From: Halohasta litchfieldiae
Lineage (GTDB): Archaea > Halobacteriota > Halobacteria > Halobacteriales > Haloferacaceae
NCBI RefSeq assembly: GCF_002788215.1
Contig: NZ_CP024845.1
Span: 1,488,001 to 1,552,000 of the forward strand
Direction of reading: 5' to 3'
DNA: 64,000 nt
The notes below the pieces were generated by a model. The model saw only the letters and a program-made list of their open reading frames with translations, was not told where the DNA came from and did no database searches. A program made the translations under genes and the position numbers. Below, piece by piece: positions 37,458 to 62,348 of this stretch; position 1 is the first letter of the stretch, and every line of letters starts with the position of its first letter.

Positions 37458-37548
37458 TCAGTCTATTTCCCATCGAACTACCTATTAAAGACATTTAGGA
37501 CATTCCTGCAACGGGGGTTTTATTATGTCTTGCTTAGAGGTTCTGTGT

Positions 37549-38874
37549 ATGACCGAGTTCTCGGATATGTCACCTATCTTTCAACAGGAAGAAGTTCTTC
37601 GTGAAGAATATCGCCCTAACGATCTCCCAGAACGAACCGACGAAATGGAGGATCTCCATATGTCGTTGGCTCCTGCCGCCCGAGGAGTCGGTGCTAATAA
37701 CGTGTTTCTCCACGGGAAAGCTGGCCAAGGGAAAACTGCTGCTGCGAAAGCAAAGCTCTCTGAACTTCAGGCACACGCTGAGGAGGAATCTGACCACTTA
37801 GATCTTACGACAGCATATGTCTCCTGTGAATCTCACGACCTCTCGACATCATATAAAACCGCTTCGCGCATCTACCAAGAACTCACCGGCAACAGTCGTC
37901 CAACAGGCTACGCGACAGATGTAGTGATGGACATGATGTTCGAGGCAATGAACGATATTGGTGGCACGATTATCATCGTCCTCGACGAAATCGATACCCT
38001 CGGTGATGACGACAGGATTCTCTATAGTCTTCCCCGAGCCCGAGCCCAGGACTACGTTGAAGATCACGTCTACCCCAGTATCATCGGTATCAGTAATGAC
38101 CTCCAGTGGCGAGATAATCTCAGTCCGAAAGTGAAGAGTTCACTGTACGATGATTCTGTGCTTTTTTCACCATATGATGCGACACAACTCCAACAGATTC
38201 TCCGCCGGCGCGCAGCGAAGGCGTTTCGCGATACCGAACTTATCCCACTCAACGAACCCGACACCGATGGAGATTTGAATGGAACTGTCGTCAAAATTGA
38301 TCAATCCGAACGAGAGTATTTGTTCCGAAGTAGTGTGTTAACCGACGACGTAATTCCTCTCATCGCTGCGCTCTCGGCACAGGATACTGGAGATGCTCGA
38401 CAGGCCATCAAATACCTTCGTAAGGCTGGTGAATTGGCAGATAAACACGGTGATGATCGAGTTAGTGCGGATCACGCTCGCGAAGCTCAAGCACTTGTAG
38501 AACGGGAAGCCGTCGTCGAGGCAATGCGAGAAATGACGACACAAGCCCATCTCGCCCTTGCCGCCCTCACTGCTTTAGAACTCTCTGGGGATGCTCCTGT
38601 CCGAGCAAAACCGATCTACGGTGTGTACAAGAGTGTTGCCTCACGAATTGATGCTGACAAACTCGGTCAGCGCCGATTTAAAGACCATCTCCGTGAACTC
38701 GATATGCAGGGAATCGCCGATGGAGAAAAGGTGACGGCAGGTTCGATCGGTGGGCCAGCATGGGAGTACCAGCTGCAAGTTGATACCGAGATCGCAGTCG
38801 AAGTTATCAAGGATACGACTCGATTCGCAGATATCGATTTTGAGCGCATCAGTGCTGATCGACCGAACGCCTAG
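37549..38874 (+). CDS. orc2: Orc1/Cdc6 replication initiator (origin 2)
   Basis: A 441-residue AAA+ initiator: Walker A GKAGQGKT (residues 56-63), Walker B IIIVLDEID, sensor GISNDLQWRD, and a C-terminal winged helix (from about residue 345). I chose the ATG at 37549; an earlier in-frame start adds eight residues. It is clearly diverged from the initiator at 4061-5317, in line with a different cognate repeat. A 20-residue insertion (NEPDTDGDLNGTVVKIDQSE) between AAA+ subdomains is unusual. Confidence 0.9.
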   Translation: MTEFSDMSPIFQQEEVLREEYRPNDLPERTDEMEDLHMSLAPAARGVGANNVFLHGKAGQGKTAAAKAKLSELQAHAEEESDHLDLTTAYVSCESHDLSTSYKTASRIYQELTGNSRPTGYATDVVMDMMFEAMNDIGGTIIIVLDEIDTLGDDDRILYSLPRARAQDYVEDHVYPSIIGISNDLQWRDNLSPKVKSSLYDDSVLFSPYDATQLQQILRRRAAKAFRDTELIPLNEPDTDGDLNGTVVKIDQSEREYLFRSSVLTDDVIPLIAALSAQDTGDARQAIKYLRKAGELADKHGDDRVSADHAREAQALVEREAVVEAMREMTTQAHLALAALTALELSGDAPVRAKPIYGVYKSVASRIDADKLGQRRFKDHLRELDMQGIADGEKVTAGSIGGPAWEYQLQVDTEIAVEVIKDTTRFADIDFERISADRPNA

Positions 38875-38944: not shown

Positions 38945-39010
38945 GTGAACTACCCCTGCCTACTTCGCTCACCTAACGGTTCGCTTCGTTGAGGCAGGGG
39001 CTTCCAAGTC
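38945..39010 (-). ncRNA. predicted omega (guide) RNA region of tnpB
   Basis: TnpB nucleases use an RNA from the right end of their element; its 3' part beyond the end acts as guide. The hairpin here overlaps the tnpB stop region as usual. Inferred from family knowledge and position only; the RNA itself is not shown by sequence. Confidence 0.4.
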
Positions 39011-40113
39011 GGCTCGCAAGCATACCGTGGCAGAGGCTTGGTCAGCACCGCTCGGTCCGAGCACAGGTTCACAGACTGCGCCGAGACTGGATAGTGGGCA
39101 CGCGATGTCCTTACCCAATCCTTTCTTTGCGATGTTCGTCGCACCGTTCTTGTCCGCGTTGTCGTCCAACCCGCACTCATGGCACAGGTGTTGGCCCTGT
39201 CCCTTGCGGGTCGTCGCTTCCTGCTCGCCACACCGCCAACACGTCTGACTCGTCATATACTCGTTCACGGACTTCACTGCGATACCCGCGAACATCGCCT
39301 TATACTCGATGTAGGTCTTGAGCGTATGATGTGGCATCGAGTGGAGCCGACGATTCATCTCCGCGCCGAGGTCTTGATTCTGGATACCTTCGAGATCCCC
39401 GACCACGATAAGCGCGTCACACTCTTTTGCTTCCTCCACGATGGCGCGTGAAATCTTGTGGAGGCGGTCGTTCACCTGACGGTACTCCTTCACCTTGACC
39501 GACTGGAGCGTGCCGTAGGCTCCTTTCTCTTGCAGGCGAGTGCGAAGGTCATGATGATGACGGCGGATGCGGCGAATTTCTCTGCCGTAGAACTCGGTGT
39601 TGCGGGATGGCAACGCCACCGACGTTGCTACCCACCGAACACCGAAATCCACGCCGATAACACCGCCGTACTCCTCGCTGACTTCCACCTCTTGCTGAAC
39701 CGTCAGGTGGGCGTAGTAGTCCCCATTTACCCGAACAATTTTTGAGTCCTTCACGTCGGCTTCGTCTGGAATCTCGTCGTGCGGTTGAATCGGGACGTTC
39801 ACGCCACCCCAGACCTGCGATACGGGGAGTTTCAGCCACCAGTCCGTCAGGTCGGTATCGTGCTGTTCCACGTCAACACCAACGTCGAACACGTCGTTAC
39901 GGATGAACCACGGGTAGTCGTGGTCGTCGCGCAGGTTGTCGGTGTCCACGTAGGCATCGGCGCATTGTTTCGTGGCCGAGTAGAGATCTGCTTCCTCGTC
40001 ACCACGAATGTATCGCTGGAACGCCTCATACTCGTGGTTGATGGCGTCAAGTTTCGACTGCGTTAGGTCGTTGGTGAAGATTTTTGCCACGACCGTTTTC
40101 TCGGCAGTCTGTT

Positions 40114-40117
<4 letters not shown>
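38969..40117 (-). CDS. tnpB: TnpB RNA-guided nuclease of IS200/IS605
   Basis: A 382-residue TnpB: RuvC Asp in GGVIGVDFGVRW, Glu in LIVVGDLEGIQN, a zinc finger (QTCWRCGEQE and HLCHECGLDD) and the last Asp in NADKNGATNIA. All catalytic residues are present. TnpB cuts the donor-free target to retain the element. The last 50 residues extend into the end hairpin. It overlaps tnpA by ATGA. Confidence 0.9.
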
Positions 40118-40863: not shown

Positions 40864-40914
40864 CTACAGATAAGCAAGGCGAGTGCCTCGGGGCTTGACC
40901 GCGAGGTGGTTCAC
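40864..40914. repeat. orphan IS200/IS605-type end hairpin
   Basis: GTGCCTCGGGGCTTGACCGC followed by GAGGTGGTTCAC, the same family as 7304 and 36950, ending in TTCAC. Directly after it ATAAGAGCG resembles an IS1595 end. Confidence 0.45.
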
Positions 40915-40930
40915 ATAAGAGCGCCTTGTG

Positions 40931-40970
40931 TTAACCAACAAAACGAGTATAAGATAGATTTGTTGGTTAA
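40931..40970. promoter_or_regulatory. palindrome TTAACCAACA/TGTTGGTTAA, second copy
   Basis: Arms extend to 13 bp here (GTTAACCAACAAA / TTTGTTGGTTAAC). Matches 3438-3478. The IS1595 element inserted at its right edge, so the gene it might have controlled is separated or lost. Confidence 0.45.
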
Positions 40971-40977
40971 CCTGTTG

Positions 40978-42023
40978 CGCTCTTATGTAGAAACGTGGAA
41001 AGTCCATATAGCTACGGTCTACGGTGTCAAATGAGGGAGTATGTCCTCCTCAGATCCAGCCTTCGGCCGGATGCTTCGCCAGCTTGTCGATCTGGGCGTG
41101 ATCACAATCAACACGGAGCCGCTCGATGCGGCCATCGAGCGGCGACTCAAGCAGTTCTGGGAGAGTACAACCTGCCCTCGGTGCGGCAACCCAAGCCTCT
41201 ACACTTGGGAATCATCTGACCGAGTCTGCTGTCGCAATTGTCCGTTTAAGCCCGTCTATACCTACGGTACACCGTTTCACGAGAAACACCTCTCCTGCGG
41301 AGAGGTGCTTCTCGCGTTCATGCTCTATGCGGATACCTTGCTGAATATCTCGGATATCGAGGTCATACTAGATCGTGCGTACAAGACGGTCTTCTATGCG
41401 ATTCGAGAGGTTGAAGCCGCGGTTCACCGGGGCTTCCCCCTCGTCTGGAGTCAGTTCCAGCACGCGATCTCTGGACCAACGCAGATCGACGAGTCTGGAA
41501 AGGTCTGTTCCGGATTCAAAGGCCAAGACCCGCCGCGAGACAGCCGTCATCGCGGCGGGTCGTCCCGGACTGGACGATCACGCTGGAAAGGTCGTCACGG
41601 CGATCAACTGACGCTCGTCGCGGCCTGCCGCGACGCGCTCCGAGTGATTCAGGGGAAACTTGGTATCGACTATGACACCGATTTAGAGCCTGTAATAGAG
41701 GAAACTGCCGACCTCTCCCAGCCGCTGGGAGAGGTCTGGACAGACGGTCTCCAAGCATATCGTCGGATGGAACACGACCACAAGATCGTGATTCACGACG
41801 AGACGTACGTCTCGTCAGAAGGAATCCACATCAACCAAGTGGAGTGCTTATTTTCGCTTGTCAAGCCGTGGCTCCGGAAGTTTCGCGGCCTCTCCAAGCA
41901 CGGCTTGGAGCAGGCCGCTCACACCTTCGGCATCGTCCGCTCAGTGAATCTCGTCGGCGCATCGTTCGAATTCCTCGTCGACTGCCTTGCTATTGGGGGA
42001 TTCCACAGCTCTACATAAGAGCG
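40978..42023 (+). mobile_element. IS1595-family element with 8-bp target duplication
   Basis: Terminal repeats CGCTCTTATGTAGAAACGTG (left) and CGCTCTTATGTAGAGCTGTG (right, reverse complement). Target duplication ACCTGTTG at 40970-40977 and 42024-42031. Length 1046 bp, one transposase gene. Confidence 0.9.
41041..42018 (+). CDS. IS1595-family transposase
   Basis: A 325-residue ISXO2-type enzyme: N-terminal zinc ribbon (TTCPRCGNPSLYTW, RVCCRNCPFK), DDE-type core with TQIDESGK, VWTDGLQAYRR and HINQVECLFSLVKPWLRKFRG (Asn/Glu region typical of the family). Intact; probably mobile. Confidence 0.9.
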   Translation: MSSSDPAFGRMLRQLVDLGVITINTEPLDAAIERRLKQFWESTTCPRCGNPSLYTWESSDRVCCRNCPFKPVYTYGTPFHEKHLSCGEVLLAFMLYADTLLNISDIEVILDRAYKTVFYAIREVEAAVHRGFPLVWSQFQHAISGPTQIDESGKVCSGFKGQDPPRDSRHRGGSSRTGRSRWKGRHGDQLTLVAACRDALRVIQGKLGIDYDTDLEPVIEETADLSQPLGEVWTDGLQAYRRMEHDHKIVIHDETYVSSEGIHINQVECLFSLVKPWLRKFRGLSKHGLEQAAHTFGIVRSVNLVGASFEFLVDCLAIGGFHSST

Positions 42024-44028: not shown

Positions 44029-47000
44029 GTGAAACCACCGACGACAACGACGATGACGATGATGGAGGCGACAACGGAGACGGTGAGCAATCAATCGACA
44101 CCGAGACTGCAGACGACAGCCCAGCAACCACGGGTGAGGAAGGTGGGGAAAGTGCTGAGAGTGAAAATGGAAGTGATGGGGCCGACACCTCGAACACGTC
44201 AGACGAAGCCCCCGCACAGACTGCCGCTGACACAGACGCCGCAGAATCGGCTGGTGAGCAATCGGACGCCGAAGCCGATACATCCTACCACCGACACAGA
44301 CGAACCGCAGACAGCGGCCAACACAGACGGGACTGCCGAGACCACAGCAACTAGCGACGATCAAGACGCCGACGCCGACGAAGACGACACCGCAACACCC
44401 ACCGACGAGTCGACGGAGACTGAATCAGAGACGGGGGAAGAGACCGAGACAGACACGACTCCCACCAAGACCAAACAGGACTATCTTGATGAAGACTACT
44501 CGGAACTCGAAGCCGAACTCGCCGTCGACCCACCCGAAGAACACCGGATCAAGGCGGCAATGGCAGCGGCTATCGAATTCTTCCACCAACAGCTTGACGC
44601 CGAGATCCCTGAAAACAGAGAGTGGAACCGCGACAACCCCAACGCCGCCTACCGCAAACCCGAAACGCCACGGGAATACTTCCGCGATCCGGAATACGAC
44701 GCCGACACCAGCACCGCCGTCGAGTTCAACGAGCGGGCTGACCTAATCAAACAGAACCTCACTGCCGAGGATGGACGGGCCGAATACGAAATCTCGCCAG
44801 CTGCGAGTCGGGAGATCGATGCAACGACTGCGAGTAATGACTCAGTAATTACTTCTGACGAAGACGGCGACCAGAGTAATGACTCAGTAATTACTCCCGA
44901 CGAAGACGGCGACCAGAGTAATGACTCAGTAATTACTCCCGACGAAGACGCTACCGACGCCGACGACAGCGAATCCATGGTCCTGTACAACTACCAGACA
45001 CGGGACAACCGTGGGTGGAGTCCCGAGACAATCGAATCGAAGAAACTCGGCTGGGCCCCACGCGATACCGACTCGCTGCGCGAACACCTCCTGGATGAAG
45101 GCTTCTCGATCAAGGAGTTGTTTGCGACCGGCCTGTTCAACGATATTGGCGACGGTGGGCTGTTGCCGTTCATGCAGGCCCGTTACATCATCCCGTATTT
45201 CGACGCCGATGGTGAGCCCGTGTTCCTGATCAGTCGGTCGATAGACACCGACATGGAACAGGACAAACAATCGGACTTCCACCGCCCGACAAAATACCTC
45301 AAGCCCAAAGAGGCCCACATCGAAGAGCCGATCTACGGCACCGAGACCATCGAGGAAGGCAAACCACTGGTCATTACCGAGGGGATTGCCGATGCAATCA
45401 CCGCCCACGAACACGACATCCCGTGTATCTCGCCGGTGACTGTCCAATTCAAAGACGAACACTACCCCATCCTGCGTGATCTAATCGTCTCGAATGACGT
45501 GCCACAGGTCTTCATCATTCAGGATGCCGACCCACCGACTACCTCAGTCCCAGAGCGGTTCACCCCGGAGTACGCCGCTAACTACGACCCCGAGGAAGAC
45601 GCAGACAAACGGGAACCAGTTGAGATTGACTCCCTGGAAGACGACAACGCCGACCGAGCGATTACGGTCAACCAGAAAGGCCCCGGATTCAACGGCGCAC
45701 TGAAAACCGCCCTCGAACTTGACGAGGAAGCGCGCAGACGCGGCGCTGAGCGAAGTCAGTCCCAAGACGGTACAGACACCGACCAGTCGGAGGAAACGGA
45801 GACAGCGGATCAAATTCACACCGTCGAAGGCGAAGCTACACCAAGCGCCGTAGCCGACCGCGAGAGCCACCGGGTCCACCCCGAAGCCTGTGGGTATGCA
45901 ACTCCCGACCGCGCCTTCGAGACCTACCTCATTGAGTTGCCACGGTTTGGCGAGATCAAATACGATCTCGATGATTACCTCTCGGATGGGCTAGCGACGG
46001 TCGCCCCACCAGCGATGTGGGCCAGCGACCACGTCGACAGACTCACCCCGACGACCGACTGGGTGACCAACCTTGCCTTGGATGGGGACCTTGCATACGC
46101 AGATCCCCAACGGTATGTCGACACACCAGCAGTCGGTGGGCTCACTGTCGACAGCGAGGCCGACGACACCACCACCTCACAGACGGTCCCACTCAGACAG
46201 ACAGTGTTGAATTACCTCCCGACGATCACCCCCAACCACACCGCGTTGAGCGAGTCGGTCGAGGCTCCATATCTCGATACGACAGGCAGTGGATTCGACT
46301 CGGATCTCCCGAGCATGGAAGGCGGTTCATCTACGGATGCTGATATGTGGGACCTGACGTGGCGTGACGTGTTCGGCCTGGACGAAGGCTACCGAGGCGT
46401 CAGTCCGTTCGGACATATCGGAGAGTCGAGAGATTACTTCGTCGTGATCTCTCCCGAGAAGGCCTACTGCCACAAACGCAAGGTGACCTACACACCCAGT
46501 ACGGGGGTGCTTGTTCGGGAGGGTGAACGCTTCCCAGAAGACCCTGAAGGACAGCTCTCGGATTGGGAGCAGTTCGTCTATTGGGCCTCCCTCAGAGAAC
46601 AAGGAATCGTCGATGATGCACCCCCGAACAAAGCCCTGCTTGCGTACGCTCGCAAACACGATCTGGCCACCGATGGTGATGGCATCGAAACCATCGACGG
46701 CGAGTACGGTGAGTTCGATGCGCTCACCAAAGAGCGACTGTATCAGGTTTGTGATCATATCGAGGCCGACTACGCTATCGATATCCAGTGGGACCCCTAC
46801 GGTGACAGGCATACGGAATCTGATACAACAGACACGTCAGCAGATAACGATGGATCGACTAAGCAATCCAATGATAGCCCACAAGACAGTCAGGCTGCGT
46901 CGACTTCCGATACTGATTCGACGTCGACTGACAGTGGGGCTACGACCGGTGAGGGTGAGACCGATCCCGCAGTCGAACAGTACCTCGCTGATGACGACGA

Positions 47001-47676
47001 CAACACCTCGGCCAGCGACCAGCCGGGCGGGGACGACTCGGCGGATGAGAGTCCGGCGACCTCTCAGAAAACGGAGACAACGCAGGGCGACACAACAGCG
47101 ACCGACGAGCCAGCTGGAACCGACAGTGACGGAACCGAGATCCCAGTCGAAGACGACTCCGACGAGGATGTCGACGAGCTCAAAGAGCGCCGCAATGCCA
47201 ACCGTGATATTCCCGACGAGCGTGAGGATTCCGTCGAGGTCGAAGGGGGTACGAACTTCCATGAAGTCATGGATCAGATGGGGACAGACGACCCACATGA
47301 AAAGTTCCGGACATACAATGGTCCCACCGAGCCCGACGACGACAACGACGATGTCGACGTAGATCGGGAGGCAGTGCTGCAGTTCGTCGAGGAGTTCACG
47401 AACACAGATGGTAGTGGGTCAAAAGAGCTGAAAGAGCACAAAAGAACTCTATACGATGCATTCAACACATGGGCTAAAATAAACGATATCGAGCTCAATG
47501 AAGTAAGCGAAGATGTGTGGGAAAATCATCGGATAGGGAACTTCAAAGATATCCTCGAAAATGAATTTGAACTAACGCATAGCAGATACACTGTGCGCGG
47601 TGAGCGGAAGAAAGGGTTTGCTGGAATTAGACTATCAGATGAGGGATATGACTTGGTTGATATGGAAATAGAATAG
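44029..47676 (+). CDS. Toprim primase/replication protein (Rep), N-terminus frameshifted
   Basis: A large plasmid replication protein. From about residue 300 it is clearly coding: YNYQTRDNRGWSPETIES, a primase-like segment, and a Toprim domain with the Glu in PLVITEGIADAITAHEH (E451) and DxD in VFIIQDADPP (D499, D501). The end resembles a P4/D5 primase C-terminal domain (KKGFAGIRLSDEGYDL). The acidic N-terminal linker is readable in another frame (43974-44280, DNDDDDDGGDNGDGEQ) and before that DPKPLGKAEEILQDAVSRGE (43878 on), so a frameshift near 44285 separates the gene from its natural start, for which no ATG is seen. The start at 44029 is only the formal one. Confidence 0.7.
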   Translation: MKPPTTTTMTMMEATTETVSNQSTPRLQTTAQQPRVRKVGKVLRVKMEVMGPTPRTRQTKPPHRLPLTQTPQNRLVSNRTPKPIHPTTDTDEPQTAANTDGTAETTATSDDQDADADEDDTATPTDESTETESETGEETETDTTPTKTKQDYLDEDYSELEAELAVDPPEEHRIKAAMAAAIEFFHQQLDAEIPENREWNRDNPNAAYRKPETPREYFRDPEYDADTSTAVEFNERADLIKQNLTAEDGRAEYEISPAASREIDATTASNDSVITSDEDGDQSNDSVITPDEDGDQSNDSVITPDEDATDADDSESMVLYNYQTRDNRGWSPETIESKKLGWAPRDTDSLREHLLDEGFSIKELFATGLFNDIGDGGLLPFMQARYIIPYFDADGEPVFLISRSIDTDMEQDKQSDFHRPTKYLKPKEAHIEEPIYGTETIEEGKPLVITEGIADAITAHEHDIPCISPVTVQFKDEHYPILRDLIVSNDVPQVFIIQDADPPTTSVPERFTPEYAANYDPEEDADKREPVEIDSLEDDNADRAITVNQKGPGFNGALKTALELDEEARRRGAERSQSQDGTDTDQSEETETADQIHTVEGEATPSAVADRESHRVHPEACGYATPDRAFETYLIELPRFGEIKYDLDDYLSDGLATVAPPAMWASDHVDRLTPTTDWVTNLALDGDLAYADPQRYVDTPAVGGLTVDSEADDTTTSQTVPLRQTVLNYLPTITPNHTALSESVEAPYLDTTGSGFDSDLPSMEGGSSTDADMWDLTWRDVFGLDEGYRGVSPFGHIGESRDYFVVISPEKAYCHKRKVTYTPSTGVLVREGERFPEDPEGQLSDWEQFVYWASLREQGIVDDAPPNKALLAYARKHDLATDGDGIETIDGEYGEFDALTKERLYQVCDHIEADYAIDIQWDPYGDRHTESDTTDTSADNDGSTKQSNDSPQDSQAASTSDTDSTSTDSGATTGEGETDPAVEQYLADDDDNTSASDQPGGDDSADESPATSQKTETTQGDTTATDEPAGTDSDGTEIPVEDDSDEDVDELKERRNANRDIPDEREDSVEVEGGTNFHEVMDQMGTDDPHEKFRTYNGPTEPDDDNDDVDVDREAVLQFVEEFTNTDGSGSKELKEHKRTLYDAFNTWAKINDIELNEVSEDVWENHRIGNFKDILENEFELTHSRYTVRGERKKGFAGIRLSDEGYDLVDMEIE
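44833..44950 (+). repeat. 42-bp tandem repeat inside rep, 2.8 copies
   Basis: Unit AGTAATGACTCAGTAATTAC followed by 22 bases, at 44833, 44875 and 44917. It encodes SNDSVITPDEDGDQ repeated in frame, and probably varies in copy number. Confidence 0.85.
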
Positions 47677-47687
47677 CTAAACAATTT

Positions 47688-49130
47688 GGTCGTGTCGCAA
47701 AGTCCTCTAGAGTTCAGTAGTAACTGACTCCCGTGAAGGCGGGGTTGCCTCTGGTGTCCAAACCGAGGTACCCCATGCACGCCACAATCGACGTGCGGTT
47801 CGAACTGAGTATCGACGACGACAAAACGCTACCGCTCGCCACGCTTGCCGAGGCCGTCACTGACCAGAACCTCGAAGCAGTCCTTCTCGAATCGCTGGTC
47901 GAGAGCCTCGACGCCGCCAGCGTCGAGGCGCTCTGTGGTGAGAAACACGCACATGGCAACGGTGACCAGCGCTTCCAACGCGCCGGCACCGACACCCGCA
48001 CAGCTGTCACAACTGCCGGAGAACACGAGTTCTCTCTCCACTACGTCGAAGATACAGCCGCTTCCCCAGACGAATCCAGCTACTTCCGGCCCGTCGAAGA
48101 CTTTCTCGACTTCGACGGGCAGAACCGCTATCAGCAGGACATCGCCGCCAAAAGCGTCGATCTCGCTACCTCGCTCAGCTATCGAGACGCTGCCAATCAC
48201 GGCGACAGCTTCGTCTCGATGCCGTCGCCGACCACCATCAACCGCCGTGCCAAGAAATACGGCCACAAGCTCAAACAGTTCCTTCCAGACTGTGTCGCTG
48301 GCACAGACGCTGACGCCGTCATTCCTGACGGGACAAAGTGCCACAGCCAAGACGACGACCGCTCGTCCCACTCCGTCCAAGCAACGCTCGGCGAAGACAC
48401 CGCCGAAGAGTCACGCTCCCTGCTGGATCTGTCGGTCAACGCTGACTGGGACGAAACTGCCGCCGAACTCGATGATATCGGCGCAGTCACTGACGACGCG
48501 ACGGTCGTCAGTGACGCTGATAGCGGCATCGTCACAGCCTTTACCGACGAAAACCGTGACCACCAGCTCGATCTCGTCCACGTCGGCCGAACGCTGGGTA
48601 ACACCCTCTGGGACGATGGCGTCTTCTCCTTGGACCGTCGGAAGGAGATCGTTTCGGAGGTGATCGACGAGGTGTTCCATCTGAAGAACTCTGTGGCGAA
48701 GCATCGTCCAGCGGAGGAGTTCGCGGCGATCCGCTCGCGGATCGCGCGAACGAGAGAGCGATTAGAGAAGACAGCGTGGCAACTGGAGCAGTTCGGGTCA
48801 GCAAAGGCTGCAGGGTATCTTCGGCGGTGGCTGCCGTCGATTGTGACGTTCGCCGAGCACGCTGTCGAGGGGTTCGAGGTTCCGTGGACCTCGAACCCCG
48901 TCGAACGACTGATGGGCGAGGTCAGCAAGCGGTGCAAGAACCAGTGGATGCGCTGGACAGCAGAGGGATTGGAAGCGATACTCCAACTTCGGTTGGTGAA
49001 GTACGCCGACCCCGAGTACTACCAAGCGTTCCTCGACGAACTGCTCCAACGTTCGACCAAAACAGCAATCAACTGTGACCTCTCAATTGAGAGTACCAGC
49101 GGCAAAGTCTAGACCGCTTTGCAACACGAC
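47688..49130 (+). mobile_element. ISH6-family element with 8-bp target duplication
   Basis: Terminal repeats GGTCGTGTCGCAAAG (left) and GGTCGTGTTGCAAAG (right, reverse complement). Target duplication AACAATTT at 47680-47687 and 49131-49138. Length 1443 bp. It has inserted between rep and its iterons. Confidence 0.9.
47775..49112 (+). CDS. ISH6-family transposase
   Basis: A 445-residue transposase of the halophile ISH6 group: beta-rich start (HATIDVRFELSIDDDKTLPL), HTH near SMPSPTTINRRAKKYGHKLK, catalytic Asp in DAVIPDGTKCHS and VVSDADSGIVTAF, Glu in SNPVERLMGEVSKRCKNQW. ATG at 47775 chosen since it matches the usual protein start. Intact. Confidence 0.9.
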   Translation: MHATIDVRFELSIDDDKTLPLATLAEAVTDQNLEAVLLESLVESLDAASVEALCGEKHAHGNGDQRFQRAGTDTRTAVTTAGEHEFSLHYVEDTAASPDESSYFRPVEDFLDFDGQNRYQQDIAAKSVDLATSLSYRDAANHGDSFVSMPSPTTINRRAKKYGHKLKQFLPDCVAGTDADAVIPDGTKCHSQDDDRSSHSVQATLGEDTAEESRSLLDLSVNADWDETAAELDDIGAVTDDATVVSDADSGIVTAFTDENRDHQLDLVHVGRTLGNTLWDDGVFSLDRRKEIVSEVIDEVFHLKNSVAKHRPAEEFAAIRSRIARTRERLEKTAWQLEQFGSAKAAGYLRRWLPSIVTFAEHAVEGFEVPWTSNPVERLMGEVSKRCKNQWMRWTAEGLEAILQLRLVKYADPEYYQAFLDELLQRSTKTAINCDLSIESTSGKV

Positions 49131-49316: not shown

Positions 49317-49665
49317 AGTACGGCGTGAAGGTGTCACCATCTTTAGGGGGATGGTGACACCAAGAAGATAAAATAACACCCCTATCTACCTAAAACCGCA
49401 GTACAACGTAGGGGTGTCACCATCTTTAGGGGGATGGTGACACCTTATCTTTACAGCAAAGCACCATATCTGTCCAAAATCGCAGTACTGCGTGGGGGTG
49501 TCACCATCCCTGCCCAGAATCGTCTTTTCTATAAAAATTCTTATGCTTGTGGAAAACTGTGAAACTGGCATACGGCGTCGGGGTGTCATCATGTAAGGGG
49601 ATGGTGACACCCTTGCTGTATGCCGATTTCATCGATTTTGAAGAGGGTGTCACCATCCCCCTCAA
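49317..49665. repeat. array of long palindromic iterons (origin 3 candidate)
   Basis: GGTGTCACCATC and GATGGTGACACC form 12-bp inverted arms, complete at 49331-49361, 49414-49444 and (with changes) 49582-49611; half copies at about 49499 and 49646. Each is preceded by a spaced CGCAGTACNNCGTG motif. The array lies downstream of rep, separated by ISH6, and no gene is present. A replication origin, or a rep-binding control site, is the likely role. Confidence 0.65.
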
Positions 49666-49699: not shown

Positions 49700-51400
49700 G
49701 CCTGACGGAGAGTTCTAGAGGGCCACATCGGCCTAACTACAATTTGTTTGGATTGTGATACAGAGGCACCTGCCCAGATGGAGGTTGGCCACCGACCCTG
49801 AGTGGGTGGCGGTTGGACCCCCAACTACCCACCTGAGAATAGGGGTAGTTGGCCCCCCTCAGTGTGAATGGATTGCAAGGCAACTGCACCGGAACCGAGG
49901 TGTCTGTCACAGCGGCACCGAGGGGTGGTGTCGAACCGATGGGGCCCGACACAGATGGCCGTCGATGACAGCGACGGCTACATACGTATCCTGATAGGAC
50001 TGGTGTCCCGACGACTAGAACGCCGCCGAGTTTGGGAACTGGTCAGCAGACGGATCGACCGGAATGTGGTGGCAACTGGGCCCACCGACAGGACCACTCA
50101 CCAGCGGTGGTGAGGCCACCAACCGACCACTCGAATGAGTGGCTGACCACCGGCTCACTGACGACTGCAATGACCCCTGCAGTTGGGTGTGGTTCGAGGC
50201 CCAAGTGGCGACTCGAATGGACGCCGATTGTGGGTGTCCAGCAGTGGGCCGACAACACGGATCGGCTCCGGCGGCTGGTTGCTTAGCTTGGTGGGTCGGA
50301 CCACCGAACTGTCTCGACCTATCAGGATTTCGAGACAGGGTGTTCGCAGTGGTTCGGGTGTTGGCTCAGTGGGGAGGCAACCTAGTTGTGGCCCGTTGGG
50401 ACAACAGGTGATTCGGTGGCTGTTGTATCGCACCTGCAGTCTCGTCTCGATGGCCGACCACTCAATGCTGGGCGTTAGTGTGGGGAGGTCGCCGTGGTTC
50501 GAGCCATAGTTGGTGGTAGTGTGTGACTGCGCTGTGGGGCCACCTTCTCGGCTATTTTTCTCAGGATTGTGATACAGCCATTTGGGGCGTGATCGTGTGG
50601 GTGGCACAGTGGGGTTCGTGGCTCCTACGATGGGGCTGTTCCCAGTGGTGCCATAGGGACAATCAGTATGGCGAGACACACCCTTCGATTCATGAATCCT
50701 CATTACTCTCAGGTGTGGCTTGTTGGGTGTGGGGGTTGGACTGTGGGGGCTACTGTTCTCAGTCGGGTTGGTGGAACTACCGACGACAACAGTGGTGGAA
50801 CTAGTCGTAGTGGTGTTTACGCTACCTGATAGGTTTTGGCTGCTCTCAGCTGGGCCAGCAGTGTCAGTGGGGCGGTTGTGTTTGTCTCTAATTTGTGATA
50901 CAAGGGCGGTGGGGTAGCGGGGTTCTAAGGACCGCAGAAGACCTAAGATTGGGACCCCCTCAGTGTCCATCGAACGCGTGGATTCAGCCTGCCCGACCGG
51001 GTGGGATTCGGCGCTGTTTCGACTCCCGACTGACCGCCGAAATGACTCGGTGGATCACCGCCAACCTCACTTTGATTCAGGGGTGGTTGTGCCCGGCGAG
51101 ACGCCCCGACCGACGACGCTGTTTCGGCGGCCACCTACTCTACTCGGAGACCCCGTGTGCGAAGTGTAACGCTCGCCGGTCAGGATTGGTTTCGGCGGCG
51201 TCGAACTCCGCCGCCCGACACATACGCTCGGTGGTAGGTCGGTAGGTGTCTCGGTCAGGCTCCACCCCCGACCACAGAAACGGCGGGCGGGGTCGCCCCG
51301 ACTCGAAGGTAGGTTTTGTCGAGTTTCGTATATACTGGTCAGTGCTGTTGTTGGGGGCCGACCCCCACCTGTTGGACCGCCGATTTCTCCCCGATTCTGT
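49700..51400. other. gene-poor region with strand-biased composition
   Basis: No convincing gene in 1.7 kb. The plus strand is rich in G and T (runs of GTGGGG, GGTGG), so the minus strand has long open but low-complexity frames. The motif TTGTGATACA occurs at about 49754, 50568 and 50898, and CCCCCTCAGTGT at 49853 and 50954. Purpose unknown. Confidence 0.4.
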
Positions 51401-51407
51401 GTCGACT

Positions 51408-51613
51408 CCTGGAGCCATATCTGACAGTCGCAGCCCCCACATATCGTCGCCCACCATCGGCGCGATCTGACACCGCGCGCTCTCCCCTCCTGCCGAGCGC
51501 GCGGTGTGATCGCGGCCCCGATGGCTCCTGCGCGCCGTGGCGTGCTCGTCGGTCAGCGGAGCTGACTGAACGAACGTATGTGGGGGCTGCTTTGTGTCAG
51601 ATATGGCTCCAGA
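51408..51613. repeat. large nested inverted repeat
   Basis: Outer arms CTGGAGCCATATCTGACA (51410 on) and TGTCAGATATGGCTCCAG (about 51595-51613), extended inward by GCAGCCCCCACATA and its complement. Inside lies a second perfect palindrome, ACACCGCGCGCTC/GAGCGCGCGGTGT (about 51472-51507). The right outer arm overlaps the start of the next gene. Confidence 0.75.
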
Positions 51614-52133
51614 GACCATGACCGCGACCGAGGCACAGCCCGCAACCAAGACCGACGACGTGATCAAAGCCTTCATGCGCGATGATGACTTCAGGCGGCT
51701 GAATCACCACGTGGACGCGGCTGTTGACGGCGAAGACGTGCGTGCGGTGTTCAGTATCGACATGACCGCCACCAACACCTCCCTCAGAGTCCTCATCACG
51801 GAGACCGGCGACGTGATCGAGACCGACCCCCACGGTGACCACTGTTCACACTGTGAGGCCAACGAGGCGTACGTCGCCCGACGAGGAACCCCGAACGGGA
51901 CGCGCGCGAAGGAGCGGCGACAAGCAAACTGTCGGCACGCCAACGCCGCCAGCAAGACGAAGGCCCTCGGTGATGCTCACGTCAACGACTCGGACAACGC
52001 CTGTCCGAACTGTGGCCACTACGCCATCGAGGTACAGGTGACGCCGATCACCCGCCGGACACCCCACGGCGACCGTGTTCATGTTAGCGATGTCGAACAG
52101 CGCCGGTGTGGTCACTGTGCCCACAACCGATAG
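51603..52133 (+). CDS. zinc-binding protein with two CxxC pairs
   Basis: A 176-residue protein. HCSHCEANEAYVARRG near the middle, then RQANCRHANAASKTKALGDA, and DNACPNCGHYAIEVQV and RRCGHCAHNR at the end, giving three or four Cys pairs. The N-terminal part (DVIKAFMRDDDFRRLNHHVD) is helical. The start lies inside the right arm of the nested palindrome, so translation or transcription may be controlled by it. Function unknown; nucleic-acid binding is plausible. Confidence 0.55.
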   Translation: MAPETMTATEAQPATKTDDVIKAFMRDDDFRRLNHHVDAAVDGEDVRAVFSIDMTATNTSLRVLITETGDVIETDPHGDHCSHCEANEAYVARRGTPNGTRAKERRQANCRHANAASKTKALGDAHVNDSDNACPNCGHYAIEVQVTPITRRTPHGDRVHVSDVEQRRCGHCAHNR

Positions 52134-52230: not shown

Positions 52231-52336
52231 TCCGCGCGCGTCGAGATCGCGCGCGGATGATCGCCCGCAGGGAAACCGACCCGACACCGGTGGCGCGCGC
52301 CCACCTCCAATCGCGCGCCACCGACACCGGGTCGGT
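52231..52336. repeat. two GC-rich palindromes
   Basis: First: TCCGCGCGCG/CGCGCGCGGA (52231-52240, 52248-52257). Second: ACCGACCC...GGTGGCGCGCG with the complementary CGCGCGCCACC...GGGTCGGT (52275-52336). They follow the zinc-protein gene and resemble the core of the nested repeat at 51.4 kb. Confidence 0.65.
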
Positions 52337-52517
52337 ACAGATGCCCTTGGCCTCCAGGAAACCGCCCGAGCCGTGGGTTCGGCGGTATGCTTGTCTCTCG
52401 CAGGTAGGCCCTTGCCTGCAAGGTTCCATCGTGCCTGCCGTAGGCGGGCGCGATCCCAGCCTACTGTGTTTGGTGAGGCGGTCGACGCGGGCCCTTTGTC
52501 TTGGGGTGAAGCCTGCC

Positions 52518-52634: not shown

Positions 52635-53226
52635 ACAGTTCGCTGTGTGTGAAGAGGGGGGTCGTCGTCATGCCACCCCCACTGCCCACAGAACTACTGA
52701 TGTCGACGCCGTCGACGTGGGAGTGACCGCCTTGAAAGCCCCCAGCCCGCTCGCGGTCGCTGAGCGACATATCTGACCGCCGAGTTTGCCTGAGTTTGCC
52801 TCGCAGATAGGGGTCGTCTCACCCGACCACGTAAACGCGAGCGGGCTGGCCCCTTTCAGTCCCACCCCGCCAGCAGCAGAAATCGGGCCGACGACGCGAC
52901 CCCTGGGTTCGAGCTCCACGACAGGAGTTGGGGGTTGGGCCCCGCTCGACAGGTCGCCACCCCGCCGGTGGTTGTTGTCGCCCAGCGCGGCCTCGGCTTT
53001 CGGGATGGGGATTTGCCGTGTCTCTCGGGCCGCTTTTTCTTCCTCAGGGCCCGTCTCGGATGGACATGAGACCCGGGAAACCGGTCGATTCCGAAATCAA
53101 ACTCCCCCCATCTGTCAAGACTGATCCGCGCGCGTCCCTCGCCCAGGAACATCTCATTATATTGTCTTCACTCGGGGTGACCTGCGCTACGGTTTTGCTC
53201 GGTCACGACACAGGGGTCGCAAAGAC
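52635..53226. other. no supported gene
   Basis: GC-rich DNA with overlapping open frames on both strands, none with a recognisable domain. Confidence 0.3.
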
Positions 53227-53637: not shown

Positions 53638-53892
53638 ATGAGACAATTACAATCGAATCTTGAAATTGCTGACGGTCAGTCGCTAGTAGCGATGGTCGGC
53701 AACGCTGAGCACGAAGCACTTGCAGACAGTACCATCGAGCAACACGCTCGCAACATCCTCGTCTCGGAAAACAAAAACGTGATCTGTCACGTCCACAGCT
53801 CCGCTGAACAGAAAAAATCTCACACTGAAACCCAGTTGAACGGTACCTATCTCAAAAAGTCGACTCCACTTTATCAAGAGGGTGATGCCTAA
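53638..53892 (+). CDS. small protein coupled to HNH gene
   Basis: An 84-residue protein (RQLQSNLEIADGQSLVAMVG...). No family is recognised. Its stop shares one base with the ATG of the HNH gene (TAATG), so both are made from one message. The ATG at 53638 was chosen over one 16 codons earlier, which adds Trp/His-rich residues. Confidence 0.6.
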   Translation: MRQLQSNLEIADGQSLVAMVGNAEHEALADSTIEQHARNILVSENKNVICHVHSSAEQKKSHTETQLNGTYLKKSTPLYQEGDA

Positions 53893-55067
53893 TGTCAGAC
53901 GCAGCTGACACACCAGATGGAGAGCAGACCCCCGACCGTGATGAGATTCCGCCCACTCGACGAAATAAGGCACTCTCACGAGACGAACATACCTGCCAAC
54001 TCTGCGGAACAAAAGGTCCAGATGCTGGCGGGATCATCCCCGTGGAGGTCCATCACAAAACGTACAACCCGACTGAGTGTAGGGTCCATGATCTCCCAAA
54101 TCTGATTACGCTCTGTCGACACTGTCACAACTGGCATCATAACAGACCAAGCGACGAGACACCAGCAGTCGATATCAGCGACGAAGCCAAAGCCAAACTG
54201 ATCGAGACCGATATCGAAATCATACATCTTCTCACACAAAACGGTCCACTAACGATCGCCGAAATCGCTGACCGAGTGAGCCCGGATCAAACACAACAGG
54301 CAGTCAAAGAGCGACTGTATCGAATTATGGGAATTGATACAGAGATCGATACCCAAGAGACACAACTCATTGATCAAGATGCAGAGACCGGACAGTGGGG
54401 ACTCCCCCATCAGATCGACATCTCCCAACGACGGGTCCCAGATGAGGTCCAAGAAATCGTCCAACGGACTGTAGACAAGATCGTTGAATTGGCGATAAAG
54501 CGAGGCTGTGATCGGGAAACTGTCGCTAAAATCGTTGATATCAACGCTCGAACTGCGTATTTGTATAAATACCGGGCCCAAGCTTATGATTTCCCGATTG
54601 GTCTGTATACTGGACAAGGGAGACCACGCAAGAATAGCGAGGAAATCACACACAAGTCCGCAGAAGAGAGCACCGGCGACGGAGAGAGCCAACAATCTCT
54701 CGATAATCTTTCCGTAGAAGAGCCGACCGGTGAAGATGCAGACGGAGAGCCCGCCACCACCGACGACGTCGACACAGACGAGACAGACCCCGAAGAGACC
54801 TCACCAGTGACGGATTCGGCGAGTGATAATAATGACCCGCCGGAAGAATTTGAGGTGATCGACCCTATGCAGCCACAGCCTGATGGGAGCAACCGGGAGT
54901 ACTTGATTACGGCTGCAGACTATCCTGAAGAACTCCATCCGATTATTCATCGGCTTAATCTTGCTAAAATCTCCAAACGAGAGCATGGACAATCGTCGGA
55001 GGATCCTCAGACAAATGGATTAGTCGAGTCACTATTCCAGAATATCCAAGATTTAGAGTTTGAGTGA
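53892..55067 (+). CDS. HNH endonuclease with HTH domains
   Basis: A 391-residue protein. N-terminal HNH domain (residues 25-85): CQLCGTKGPDAGGIIPVEVH with HHK and then LITLCRHCHNWHH, the zinc-supported beta-beta-alpha nuclease. A winged helix follows (PLTIAEIADRVSPDQTQQAV) and a second HTH (GCDRETVAKIVDINARTAYL). The C-terminal third is acidic linker plus a short conserved end. It may nick or cut DNA at a specific site, as in plasmid mobilisation or replication control. Confidence 0.75.
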   Translation: MSDAADTPDGEQTPDRDEIPPTRRNKALSRDEHTCQLCGTKGPDAGGIIPVEVHHKTYNPTECRVHDLPNLITLCRHCHNWHHNRPSDETPAVDISDEAKAKLIETDIEIIHLLTQNGPLTIAEIADRVSPDQTQQAVKERLYRIMGIDTEIDTQETQLIDQDAETGQWGLPHQIDISQRRVPDEVQEIVQRTVDKIVELAIKRGCDRETVAKIVDINARTAYLYKYRAQAYDFPIGLYTGQGRPRKNSEEITHKSAEESTGDGESQQSLDNLSVEEPTGEDADGEPATTDDVDTDETDPEETSPVTDSASDNNDPPEEFEVIDPMQPQPDGSNREYLITAADYPEELHPIIHRLNLAKISKREHGQSSEDPQTNGLVESLFQNIQDLEFE

Positions 55068-55637: not shown

Positions 55638-56611
55638 GATTGTTGGTGAGTTAGAGCACAGTTTCAAGAATTGTTTCTAATGCCTCCTTTCCCGGTTTTC
55701 GGAAGACTTCACGGCGAAGCTGAAACGCTCTGAGGTACGGCGTGAGTTTGTCTTTGGAGATACCTCGATGGGGCGAGAGCCAGGATCGCACCAGCGATCC
55801 GTGGCTCTCGCAGGTATTGACGTGGACATCTCCATCAACGTACTCGCCATCGCCGTGGACGACGTATTCACGAGTGAATTCGTCGTCCTCCTCAAGCGGT
55901 TCATACGCCCGAAAGCCGTCGGTATAGACAGTCAGCGACTCCTGGTGGCGGTCAGCCAGCAGGAGTCGGATCGTCGATTCATCGGCGGCTTTCGCTGGGA
56001 TCACGTACCGCTCACCGGTGCCGCGATCAGCCAAAATAAACACAGGTGGCTTGTCCTTTTCATATGTTCCACGCCCGCGTGTCGACAGGCCACGCGAGCG
56101 CGACGGCTGGTCGCGCTCGCGGCCTTTGAGTCCGGCTTTCACGTACAGCTCGTCGATCTCAACAGGACCTTCGAGGTGTGGCAGAGGCGCATCCAGCGCC
56201 CGCAGGAAGCGCTGGATGCGCCGATAGATCGTCTTGTAGGAAACGTCAATTTCCACGTCGAGCTGTCTAAAACTCGTGTTGAAGCGGATGTAGGTGTAGA
56301 CCGCGAGGAACCATTTTTTGAGAGCAACCGCTGAGTGTTCAAAGACTGTGGCTGTCTGATCGTTGAACGTACGGTCGCAATTTTTACACTGGTATCGCTG
56401 GAACACTCGATAGCCGCCGTACCGAATCACAGATTCGGCACGGCAGCGTGGGCAATAGACGCCGTCACGCCAGCGAACCTGTCGTAGCAGGTTCGCGGCT
56501 CGACGCTCCGAGACAAACGTCTTGATTGGAAACATCGTTTGTCGGGTGACACGAACGTGTCACCCTTGCCCGCTGTGACTTTCAGCTACTGCTAAGCCCT
56601 GACCAACAATC
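55638..56611 (-). mobile_element. IS1595-family element, second type
   Basis: Ends GATTGTTGGTGAGTTAGAGC (left) and GATTGTTGGTCAGGGCTTAG (right, reverse complement). I see no target duplication, so flanking DNA may have been lost. Distinct from the IS1595 at 41 kb. Confidence 0.75.
55651..56535 (-). CDS. IS1595-family transposase
   Basis: A 294-residue enzyme: zinc ribbon YCPRCRAESVIRYGGYRVF with CKNC, an HTH, catalytic EGPVEIDELYVKAG, LTVYTDGFRAY, and HVNTCESHGSLVRSWLSPHRG. Full length. Confidence 0.9.
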   Translation of the reverse strand: MFPIKTFVSERRAANLLRQVRWRDGVYCPRCRAESVIRYGGYRVFQRYQCKNCDRTFNDQTATVFEHSAVALKKWFLAVYTYIRFNTSFRQLDVEIDVSYKTIYRRIQRFLRALDAPLPHLEGPVEIDELYVKAGLKGRERDQPSRSRGLSTRGRGTYEKDKPPVFILADRGTGERYVIPAKAADESTIRLLLADRHQESLTVYTDGFRAYEPLEEDDEFTREYVVHGDGEYVDGDVHVNTCESHGSLVRSWLSPHRGISKDKLTPYLRAFQLRREVFRKPGKEALETILETVL

Positions 56612-56703
56612 CTCTACCCAAGAGCGTAATCGCTAATCCCTATATGTTATGCGCATCTTGAGGAGGTAATTCACTTCGGGACGCGAATTTTTGTCGAAGA
56701 AAT

Positions 56704-56777
56704 GGGCCCTGTCGGATTCGAACCAACGACCACCGAGTTATGAGCTCGGCGCTCTAACCAGACTAAGCTAAGGGCCC
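56704..56777 (-). tRNA. tRNA, anticodon CAT (Met or Ile2)
   Basis: A 74-nt cloverleaf: acceptor GGGCCCT/AGGGCCC, D arm GCTTAGTCTGGTTAGAGC, anticodon arm CCGAG-CTCATAA-CTCGG, T arm GTTGG-TTCGAAT-CCGAC. No intron and no encoded CCA. Elongator Met and agmatidine-modified Ile tRNA both have CAT, which I cannot separate by eye. Confidence 0.9.
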
Positions 56778-59711: not shown

Positions 59712-60857
59712 TCAATTCAGAATGTCGAACACTTCGACAGCTTTGTACTCCTTACCCCGTTCTTTGCCGGTCACTTCCTCGATAATGCCATCCGACTCGA
59801 GGTCTTCGACGATTTTGTAGGCGGTCCGGCGTGAAACATCGAGATAGTCTACGAGGTCTAGTGGTGTGAAATACGGATACTGGAGTAGCTGTCGAGCGAA
59901 CTTATCTGTATTCGTGCTACCCGAGTACTCTTTGTCGTAGTGGGCTTGGAGATCTCGGAGTCGATGAGTCCGGTTGTACGATGTCTCGGCTTGAGTTCGA
60001 AGTCCCTCGACGAAGAATGTGATCCACTCGTCCCATGCGCCAGTTTCACTCACTGCACGCATTCGTTCGACGTACTCGATTTTGTGACGATTGAAGTATG
60101 CACTCGGGTAGATATACGGGCTTTCGAGGTACCCTTCGCTGGCCAAATAGAGGATAATAAGTAGTCGACCGAGTCGGCCGTTGCCATCTGAAAACGGGTG
60201 AACTGTCTCGAAAAAGTAGTGGATGATGGCGGCGTCGACAAGTGGGTGATACTGTCCACCCATCTGAATGTATGATTCAAATGAGGTCATGAGTCCATTG
60301 AGTCCCTCGGGAGCGGGTGGGACAAACGGACGCTTTCCTGGCTGTGGACTCGCGAGATGAACCATATGGTCGCGGAAACCTCCCACGACATCACCTTCAT
60401 TGCGGACGTCCTCAAGCAAGATCGAATGGAGGTTTTTGAGTAGTGAGAGTGTTAGTGATTCTCTGCTTTCGATTTTGTTGAGCCCATGCGTAAGCGCGGT
60501 CTCGTAGTTGAGAGCCTCTTTCAGGTCTTTCTCGATTTTGGGGTCAGTCTGGCCTTCGGGGTGTCTTGTGTGATAGGCTTCGACATCTTGGTAGGCAACA
60601 TTTGCGCCTTCGATCCGCGCTGATTCGACAGCTTCAATCCGAATGAGAGAGGTGTAAAGAACTGCAGAGAAGTCGACTGTCGAGCTGATACCGTCAACAC
60701 GGCCGATTTGATACGCTGCATCGGCGACCAGATCACGCGTCTGTTCGGGGAGTTCGAGTTTTGGCTCTATCGGGAGAGGTTCGGGTGAATAGTACGGCTC
60801 CGGATGATACGGGACATATTTCCCTGGTGCATCCTCGGGAAGCTCTTTGGTAGGCAT
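59712..60857 (-). CDS. Fic-family AMP-transferase
   Basis: A 381-residue protein: N-terminal Fic_N region with the inhibitory motif ESARIEGAN, Fic core VHPFSDGNGRLGRLLI (catalytic His), and a C-terminal winged helix (FTPLDLVDYLDVSRRTAYKI). Family enzymes transfer AMP to protein hydroxyls; this class is self-inhibited by its own N-terminal helix. Often on mobile DNA as a toxin-like or regulatory gene. Confidence 0.9.
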   Translation of the reverse strand: MPTKELPEDAPGKYVPYHPEPYYSPEPLPIEPKLELPEQTRDLVADAAYQIGRVDGISSTVDFSAVLYTSLIRIEAVESARIEGANVAYQDVEAYHTRHPEGQTDPKIEKDLKEALNYETALTHGLNKIESRESLTLSLLKNLHSILLEDVRNEGDVVGGFRDHMVHLASPQPGKRPFVPPAPEGLNGLMTSFESYIQMGGQYHPLVDAAIIHYFFETVHPFSDGNGRLGRLLIILYLASEGYLESPYIYPSAYFNRHKIEYVERMRAVSETGAWDEWITFFVEGLRTQAETSYNRTHRLRDLQAHYDKEYSGSTNTDKFARQLLQYPYFTPLDLVDYLDVSRRTAYKIVEDLESDGIIEEVTGKERGKEYKAVEVFDILN

Positions 60858-61103: not shown

Positions 61104-62348
61104 TCAGATATGATCGAAGACGTCACTCAGTTCCTCACGCATGGAGTCTCGTCGATAGCGTCGCTTCTCGGCTTCTGAGAGGTAGTTCTGAGAAACGACT
61201 TCCGTACTCGACGAGCCTTGATCGGCAGCGATTCCTTCGAGACCTTCCATCATCTGCTTGACAGCCTCGTTGTAGGTGGTGTACCAGAAGCGCCGGCTCA
61301 TCTTGGCGGTCGGTGTCTTCGCCTCGACAGTGACTCCTGCGTCCTCAACAAGCCGCTTGAACCGTTGGTTGACTGTTTGCGGTGCGATATGCCCTGACGA
61401 CGAGCGACTGGATGGGAAGAGATAGCCATCCCAATTCGGGCCATCGAGATCAACAATCCGCTGGTTGAGCACGTCGACGCCGAACAGCAGCGCAACCTCT
61501 CCAGGACCGTTCTTGCGCTGCTCGAAGATGATTCGATTGTCCTCGTCGTCGGTGAGCACGAACTGATCGATAGAGAGCGATGCAACCTCGTTGGGTCGGA
61601 GCCCCCAGGCTCCAAGAGCCAACACGAGGAGTTGAGAGTCAATAGAGTCGGCGGCCTCGTAGATCGCCCGCATCCCGTCGGCGTCGACGGTCTTGTTGTC
61701 GGGTGTATCGATCTCCCAGCGGAATTGATCGTTGGCTCCGTCGAGTGGATTGTATTTCGCGCCCTCGAACCGTACTTGGTGATCGTAGAACTGCTGGACA
61801 TCGCCGAGGTACTTGAGCCGAGACTGATCGGTCGACAGGCGGTCTTTGAGGATATCGAAAACCTCCATACAGCGGTCATTTTCAGCTGGCCGCTCGTCGA
61901 TATGATCAAGGTTTCGGGTGAGATTGTGTGGGCCATGCAGCTGCTCGTAGATTCGAGCATACTCCGCCAGTCGAGAGCGTCGACTCACCACTGTCGACGG
62001 TGCGAGCTCCCCACGGTTACGCTGTGTCGAGAGATACGTCTGGATTGCTTCGATAGTCTCGTCGCTTCTAACTCCCCAATCGTAGCCTGATTCCTCGTTG
62101 TTCCCTCCTGGATTCTCGTCGTCAAGACCGACCTCGTCGACGAAGAACTCTTTGACCGTGAGATCGTGGTGCTCTCGGAGCGTGTAGGACAGTCCGGAGA
62201 AGCCGTTGGCAGCTAGCCACTCGTAGCTCGGTCGACCGTGTTTTGGGTTGTAATCGTCTTCTTGCATCGCCGGTCGGATCTTGGTGTAGTAGAAGTCGAC
62301 CAACTCACTGAGTGACTTACGCGCCCACTGATACTGAGATTCGGTCAC
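61104..62348 (-). CDS. tyrosine recombinase (integrase)
   Basis: A 414-residue recombinase with an N-terminal SAM-like core-binding region (residues 120-220) and a catalytic domain: first Arg in LGAWGLRPNEVASL, later RFWYTTYNEAVK and the Tyr in VVSQNYLSEAEKRRY. The box II His-x-x-Arg is written SRR here, so the His position is uncertain. It may integrate a plasmid or virus, or resolve dimers. No matching attachment repeats were seen near the tRNA at 56.7 kb. Confidence 0.8.
   Translation of the reverse strand: MTESQYQWARKSLSELVDFYYTKIRPAMQEDDYNPKHGRPSYEWLAANGFSGLSYTLREHHDLTVKEFFVDEVGLDDENPGGNNEESGYDWGVRSDETIEAIQTYLSTQRNRGELAPSTVVSRRSRLAEYARIYEQLHGPHNLTRNLDHIDERPAENDRCMEVFDILKDRLSTDQSRLKYLGDVQQFYDHQVRFEGAKYNPLDGANDQFRWEIDTPDNKTVDADGMRAIYEAADSIDSQLLVLALGAWGLRPNEVASLSIDQFVLTDDEDNRIIFEQRKNGPGEVALLFGVDVLNQRIVDLDGPNWDGYLFPSSRSSSGHIAPQTVNQRFKRLVEDAGVTVEAKTPTAKMSRRFWYTTYNEAVKQMMEGLEGIAADQGSSSTEVVSQNYLSEAEKRRYRRDSMREELSDVFDHI

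Follow-up and report, generated by a model that had tools for sequence, protein, structure and literature searches.

The window, by which we mean the whole 64,000-nt stretch of DNA analysed here, covers positions 1488001-1552000 of a single-contig genome of 3.33 Mb and has haloarchaeal gene content and nearest relatives. Besides the genes and insertion sequences listed in Table 1, it has a ParA-type gene and, at 59715-60857, a gene for a Fic-domain protein with a strong match to SoFic. The region around the element described below looks like integrated plasmid-type DNA. This element is a large foldback, lying directly upstream of a gene for a cysteine-rich protein.

Table 1. Parts of the foldback and features of its surroundings, in window coordinates.
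Feature	Coordinates	Strand	Remarks
Orc1/Cdc6 gene	37525-38874		
TnpB gene	38972-40117		
Primase-like protein gene	44029-47676		Relatives in haloarchaeal plasmids
ISH6	47733-49112		
TATA-box-like stretch TTTCGTATATAC	51324-51335	+	Found by eye, letters confirmed; about 75 nt upstream of the foldback
Left outer arm, distal block	51409-51426	+	18 bp, 100% complementary to 51595-51612
Left outer arm, proximal block	51430-51443	+	14 bp, 100% complementary to 51577-51590
Inner 27-bp hairpin	51454-51524	+	12-nt loop at 51483-51494; from repeats and fold
Small hairpin, 6 bp	51530-51545	+	From fold
Small hairpin, 12 bp	51546-51573	+	From fold
Right outer arm, proximal block	51577-51590	+	14 bp, complement of 51430-51443
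Right outer arm, distal block	51595-51612	+	18 bp, complement of 51409-51426
Gene of 171-aa cysteine-rich (zinc-ribbon-like) protein	51618-52133	+	Likely start ATG 51618; homologues begin at the aligned residue
HNH protein gene	53892-55067		
IS1595	55654-56535		
tRNA-Met	56703-56777		
Integrase (tyrosine-recombinase) gene	61107-62348		

The first-pass annotation had described nested perfect palindromes spanning about 200 bp, and its geometry is borne out: the foldback measures 204 bp (51409-51612) and is larger than described. The outer inverted repeat of about 32 matched bases consists of 18 and 14 perfect pairs, and the inner GC palindrome with 13-bp arms is perfect as well (51470-51482 with 51495-51507, 12-nt loop). 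In the predicted fold, the inner hairpin is lengthened to 27 bp, as 51454-51467 pairs with 51508-51514 and 51518-51524, and the 14-bp proximal helix is extended by 3 bp (51445-51447 with 51574-51576). The result is a branched foldback made of an 18-bp helix, a 3/4-nt internal loop, a 14(+3)-bp helix, and a junction that carries the 27-bp hairpin and the two small ones. Its 80 pairs comprise 52 G-C, 26 A-T and 2 G-T, i.e. 78 are Watson-Crick, and its terminal inverted repeats extend over about 36 nt, imperfectly. The proposed folding check was run computationally: 51400-51625 folds at -146.2 kcal/mol as RNA (z -11.95), with a z of -12.25 under DNA parameters and of -10.88 for the opposite strand as RNA. 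The inner and outer palindromes have common 8-mers near their ends (ATCTGACA, ATGGCTCC), which is what one would expect if related palindromes were nested; in a post hoc test, shuffling the inner arms 2000 times gave 17 scores as high.

No open reading frame of at least 50 aa is listed wholly inside the foldback, and the three frames that overlap it on either strand (178, 101 and 74 aa) match no Pfam or PHROG family. It has no Rfam match at E <= 1, and a scan for sigma-type promoters and intrinsic terminators, which does not cover archaeal promoters, places none on it.

The foldback is real, extreme and discrete, and lies far beyond chance. Counting one or two neighbouring perfect blocks, the best inverted repeat in the window has 32 matched bases; when the whole window was dinucleotide-shuffled 30 times, the best repeats had 10-14. 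In the genome at large, sampled as twenty 20-kb pieces (400 kb of the 3.33 Mb), three gapped repeats have 20-22 matched bases and none has at least 25. Among 639 windows of 200 nt (20 shuffles each), the lowest z (-7.5) belongs to 51401-51600. The flanking 200-nt windows are unstructured, with z of +0.5 (51201-51400) and +1.1 (51601-51800), and the structure therefore stops at the arms of the foldback. As for G-T pairs, they average about 10% in 60 random 204-nt segments, 3 of which also have a share of at most 3%; the low count in the foldback is expected for symmetry kept in DNA and lends it weak support.

We searched for homologues with the whole element, its arms and its inner hairpin, using DNA similarity, exact patterns and a structure model built from this one sequence. 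In its own genome, DNA similarity finds the foldback in one place only, and the 18-nt end has no other site within 2 mismatches; therefore no partner insertion sequence was seen there. No second copy was found by DNA similarity in 99 relatives (at most 8 candidates scored per genome) or in 391 genomes of the class (at most 2), nor by the structure model in 99 genomes (at most 24); diverged copies may have been missed because only 2, 8 or 24 candidates were scored per genome. Plasmids and phages searched by DNA similarity, and viral and genome contigs searched by exact patterns, contained no convincing relative. The best non-self match of the structure model among 28 sequences had an E of 0.17, and among the listed matches outside its own genome none covers both arms.

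The matches that did appear were not taken as relatives. Short ones occur in 46 of the 99 genomes (E <= 0.1) and others in 10 of the 391 (E <= 0.001), the own genome being included in both counts; the 9 non-self matches of the latter search lie inside stop-free frames of 1008-2385 nt and are probably coding DNA. Matches in two genomes (G061 and G349) cover the left arm, where the surrounding inverted repeats reach only 9-10 bp. Weak matches were also set aside in 5 bacterial plasmid records (E 0.05), in 13 mycobacteriophage records (E 0.02), and in further bacterial plasmids (4 at E 0.6 or worse, 5 at E 0.01 or worse). The pattern matches in viral contigs (24 and 94 stretches) have none of their 119 sites in an inverted repeat of at least 11 bp. 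The four matches in genome contigs come from bacterial MAG contigs, one touching a 9-bp inverted repeat and the rest none.

The window holds several other repeats. A hairpin at 52425-52466 has arms (CATCGTGCCTGC...GCGGGCGCGAT) that, leaving its loop aside, are identical to a section of a non-coding repeat dispersed in Haloarcula plasmids. This repeat matches 13 plasmid records (12 of Haloarcula, 1 of Halorientalis), and the pattern of 52425-52466 occurs in 14 of the 391 genomes, its own included, two of which (G166 and G355) differ inside. We rejected the foldback as a copy of this repeat, whose sole match in the window is 52425-52466 (profile E 3e-8). The AT-rich non-coding DNA after ISH6 (49328-49665) contains several inverted, iteron-like copies of GGTGTCACCATC(CCC) and has the second lowest fold z of the window. 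A nested GC hairpin with a 12-nt loop at 52275-52336 is laid out like the foldback's inner hairpin. Two more repeats lie further away: a gapped inverted repeat with 25 matched bases at 40913-40988, which separates the genes for TnpB and an IS1595-type transposase, and several inverted repeats around CCACTATGTCCGCTGTTC-like words at 5426-5985.

A further non-coding hairpin, at 52731-52868, belongs to a family of DNA hairpins dispersed in the class, which we call R1. It matches unannotated stretches in 5 haloarchaeal plasmid records, and DNA matches at E <= 1e-5 were found in 51 of 292 genomes of the class, its own included (at most 2 candidates scored per genome). A covariance model extends this, at the same threshold, to 74 of 194 genomes, again with its own, and 37 of 65 genera, the top genomes having at least 18 matches (18 candidates scored per genome). 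In its own genome, three places pass E <= 0.001, and two of these score weakly (37 and 35 bits). Copies mostly end in GAAAGCCC...CTTTCAGTCC(C)ACC, a constancy that is partly by construction because the motif filter, which turned 38 placements into 34 distinct sequences, requires both ends; copies with other ends exist (L213, L227). After two sequences with a different core (L241 and L244) and an extra partial copy (L211) were left out, the alignment of 31 copies has 22 pairs, of which 14 vary on both sides. Among its 678 cells, which count related sequences and not events, 95.9% are paired and 2 are G-U, and none of 500 shuffles reaches the observed values. The family has no Rfam match in the window or in six loci, and we found no paper containing any of four 14-nt R1 words; a literature search on small mobile repeats returned PMC3119063 alone. 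Paired changes without G-U intermediates suggest that the R1 hairpin is selected as DNA, and, with its presence in many genera of the class, R1 offers a case in which such selection can be tested. The foldback does not belong to this family: the covariance model gives 105.6 bits for 52731-52868, and inside 51409-51612 it never exceeds 4.6 bits.

Our tentative preference is to see the foldback as an orphan non-coding element of the miniature mobile-repeat type (MITE or SMR) sitting in integrated plasmid-like DNA. We infer its mobility because terminal inverted repeats surround a non-coding unit with nested palindromes and common end 8-mers, because G-T pairs are few and the element is not conserved with the adjacent gene, and because its neighbourhood is mobile, with ISH6, IS1595, TnpB, integrase, Orc1/Cdc6, ParA-type and primase-like genes. 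The outer arms would once have been recognised as ends by a DNA-acting recombinase or transposase, and the inner palindrome may be a second unit nested inside the first. The foldback would have come with the plasmid-like region and now be a single relic. What speaks against such a relic is that, when alone, it has no need to retain 78 Watson-Crick pairs out of 80, except if it is young or under selection. The two flanks have no target duplication of 3-10 nt directly at the arm ends, a feature frequent in MITEs and not universal, and no direct repeat of at least 6 nt surrounds the element. Because we found neither a second copy nor a target duplication nor a partner transposase, we do not claim membership among MITEs or SMRs. 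The foldback is ordinary in kind and unusual in size.

The same near-pure Watson-Crick symmetry would fit a DNA hairpin or cruciform that works in the integrated plasmid when single-stranded, as a site of priming, transfer or recombination; we consider this unlikely though still worth weighing. The plasmid-related primase-like gene and the Orc1/Cdc6 and integrase genes of the window are consistent with it, as are the clustered palindromic repeats of 49328-49665 and the GC hairpins at 52275-52336 and 52731-52868; moreover, PMC13107129 reports a hairpin DNA origin, backed by mutations, in the haloarchaeal pleolipovirus SNJ2. Against it, the foldback is not conserved with any neighbour, and among 25 chosen ORFs of the window (82 are listed), Pfam finds no rolling-circle Rep or relaxase domain. 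The single-strand origin suggested by the first-pass annotation thus lacks a cognate Rep among these ORFs, and the search it proposed in small plasmids gives it no help: among small plasmids that carry primase relatives, four taken whole and one over 20 kb have no comparable repeat, nor have parts of two larger plasmids. The longest repeat in the plasmids with primase relatives has 20 matched bases around a 355-nt gap. The idea of a resolution site fares no better, the tyrosine-recombinase gene being about 9.5 kb away with no link to the repeat found. If it works as a DNA hairpin, the foldback would give archaeal plasmid DNA a large branched site. A broader version, in which 51409-51612, 52275-52336, 52731-52868 and the cluster 49328-49665 together form a DNA-level control region rich in hairpins, belonging to a lineage of haloarchaeal plasmids and recognised as branched single-stranded DNA by a plasmid primase or recombinase, strikes us as very doubtful.

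We regard it as quite improbable that the foldback serves the zinc-protein gene as a structured leader RNA or riboregulator, although several observations make the idea natural: it folds with a z of about -12, it ends just before the gene, and if the TATA-like stretch spotted by eye upstream were used, the whole foldback would be the 5' leader of the transcript. The right arm had been said to reach into the start of the gene, placing the start codon in a stem. Homologue starts align at ATG 51618, so the foldback ends 5 nt before the likely start, which is probably outside the arm; only an in-frame GTG at 51594 or ATG at 51603 would fall inside. The protein itself matches no Pfam, PHROG, NCBIfam or PADLOC family at E <= 0.001. 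Of the 390 other genomes of the class, 8 gave a match to its gene, in one case broken up by stop codons; of 72,556 plasmid records one did (Haloarcula sp. CBA1115, where conjugation genes lie nearby). Phages gave none, nor did narrower pattern scans of genome and viral contigs.

These homologues allow the comparison that decides against a switch on the gene. Eight loci were measured, seven genomes and the plasmid; the start was taken as the nearest upstream ATG in one (L011), and a ninth (L012), a weak match with stops in which no start could be placed, was left out. In all 8, the best gapped inverted repeat within 400 nt upstream has no more than 14 matched bases, compared with 32 in the foldback, which is absent from each of them, an outcome that the first-pass annotation had named beforehand as refuting its proposal. 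As a leader RNA, a conserved foldback thus precedes the gene in 0 of the 8 loci. In favour of a leader, GC-rich non-coding DNA precedes the homologues too, with fold z of -0.1 to -4.1. The lack of an Rfam match, the two strands folding about equally well, and the G-U pairs numbering only 2 of 80 also argue against an RNA role. Under the mobile-repeat reading, too, a side effect may be expected: in any transcript that runs into the gene, a very stable hairpin would end 5 nt ahead of the start codon and should depress translation.

A functionless palindrome created by local inverted duplication, for instance through template switching, would explain why the foldback is single-copy and has no relatives that we could find. 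However, its helices of 18, 17, 27, 6 and 12 bp are distinct and have different arms, such that several independent events would be needed, and we judge this origin rather improbable. In retrons, a1/a2 repeats lie outside and a long msd hairpin inside; the architecture alone recalls such an msr-msd RNA, with the outer repeat as a1/a2 and the inner hairpin as msd, an extremely improbable identity given that the downstream 171-aa protein has no reverse-transcriptase match and that the 25 chosen ORFs, neighbours of the foldback included, contain no reverse transcriptase, adjacent or otherwise.

The comparison with known systems can be made for three kinds of element. The origin of SNJ2 resembles our locus as a palindrome beside a hairpin in haloarchaeal mobile DNA; unlike the foldback, where neither was found, it has a Rep-Arvir gene directly upstream and a conserved hairpin motif, as described in PMC13107129. 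With the MITEs of haloarchaea, as presented in PMC3119063, the foldback shares a short non-coding unit between terminal inverted repeats. It differs from them in that we saw no further copy (own genome, and the candidates scored in other genomes), no target duplication, and no transposon whose ends match its own (own genome, up to 2 mismatches to the 18-nt end). PMC3119063 also describes the small repeats of Haloquadratum walsbyi, which have terminal inverted repeats without target duplication or known transposase and whose mobilisation it calls enigmatic. There, SMR-A measures about 110 bp and one SMR-B 80 bp, and all are multi-copy, whereas the foldback is a single copy of 204 bp, its inner hairpin accounting for 71 bp of sequence. 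Like SMR-A and SMR-B, it is non-coding, lacks a target duplication, and has terminal inverted repeats unrelated to a known transposon, a relation assessed in its own genome. If it is of the mobile type, it adds one more orphan to a class whose haloarchaeal movers are, by that account, unknown. These small repeats insert inside near-terminal palindromes of other elements, SMR-A in those of PATE/IS605 (PMC3119063). The palindromes of the foldback are nested and have common end 8-mers, and no host element was identified; its layout may thus recall that of SMR-A sitting within other palindromes.
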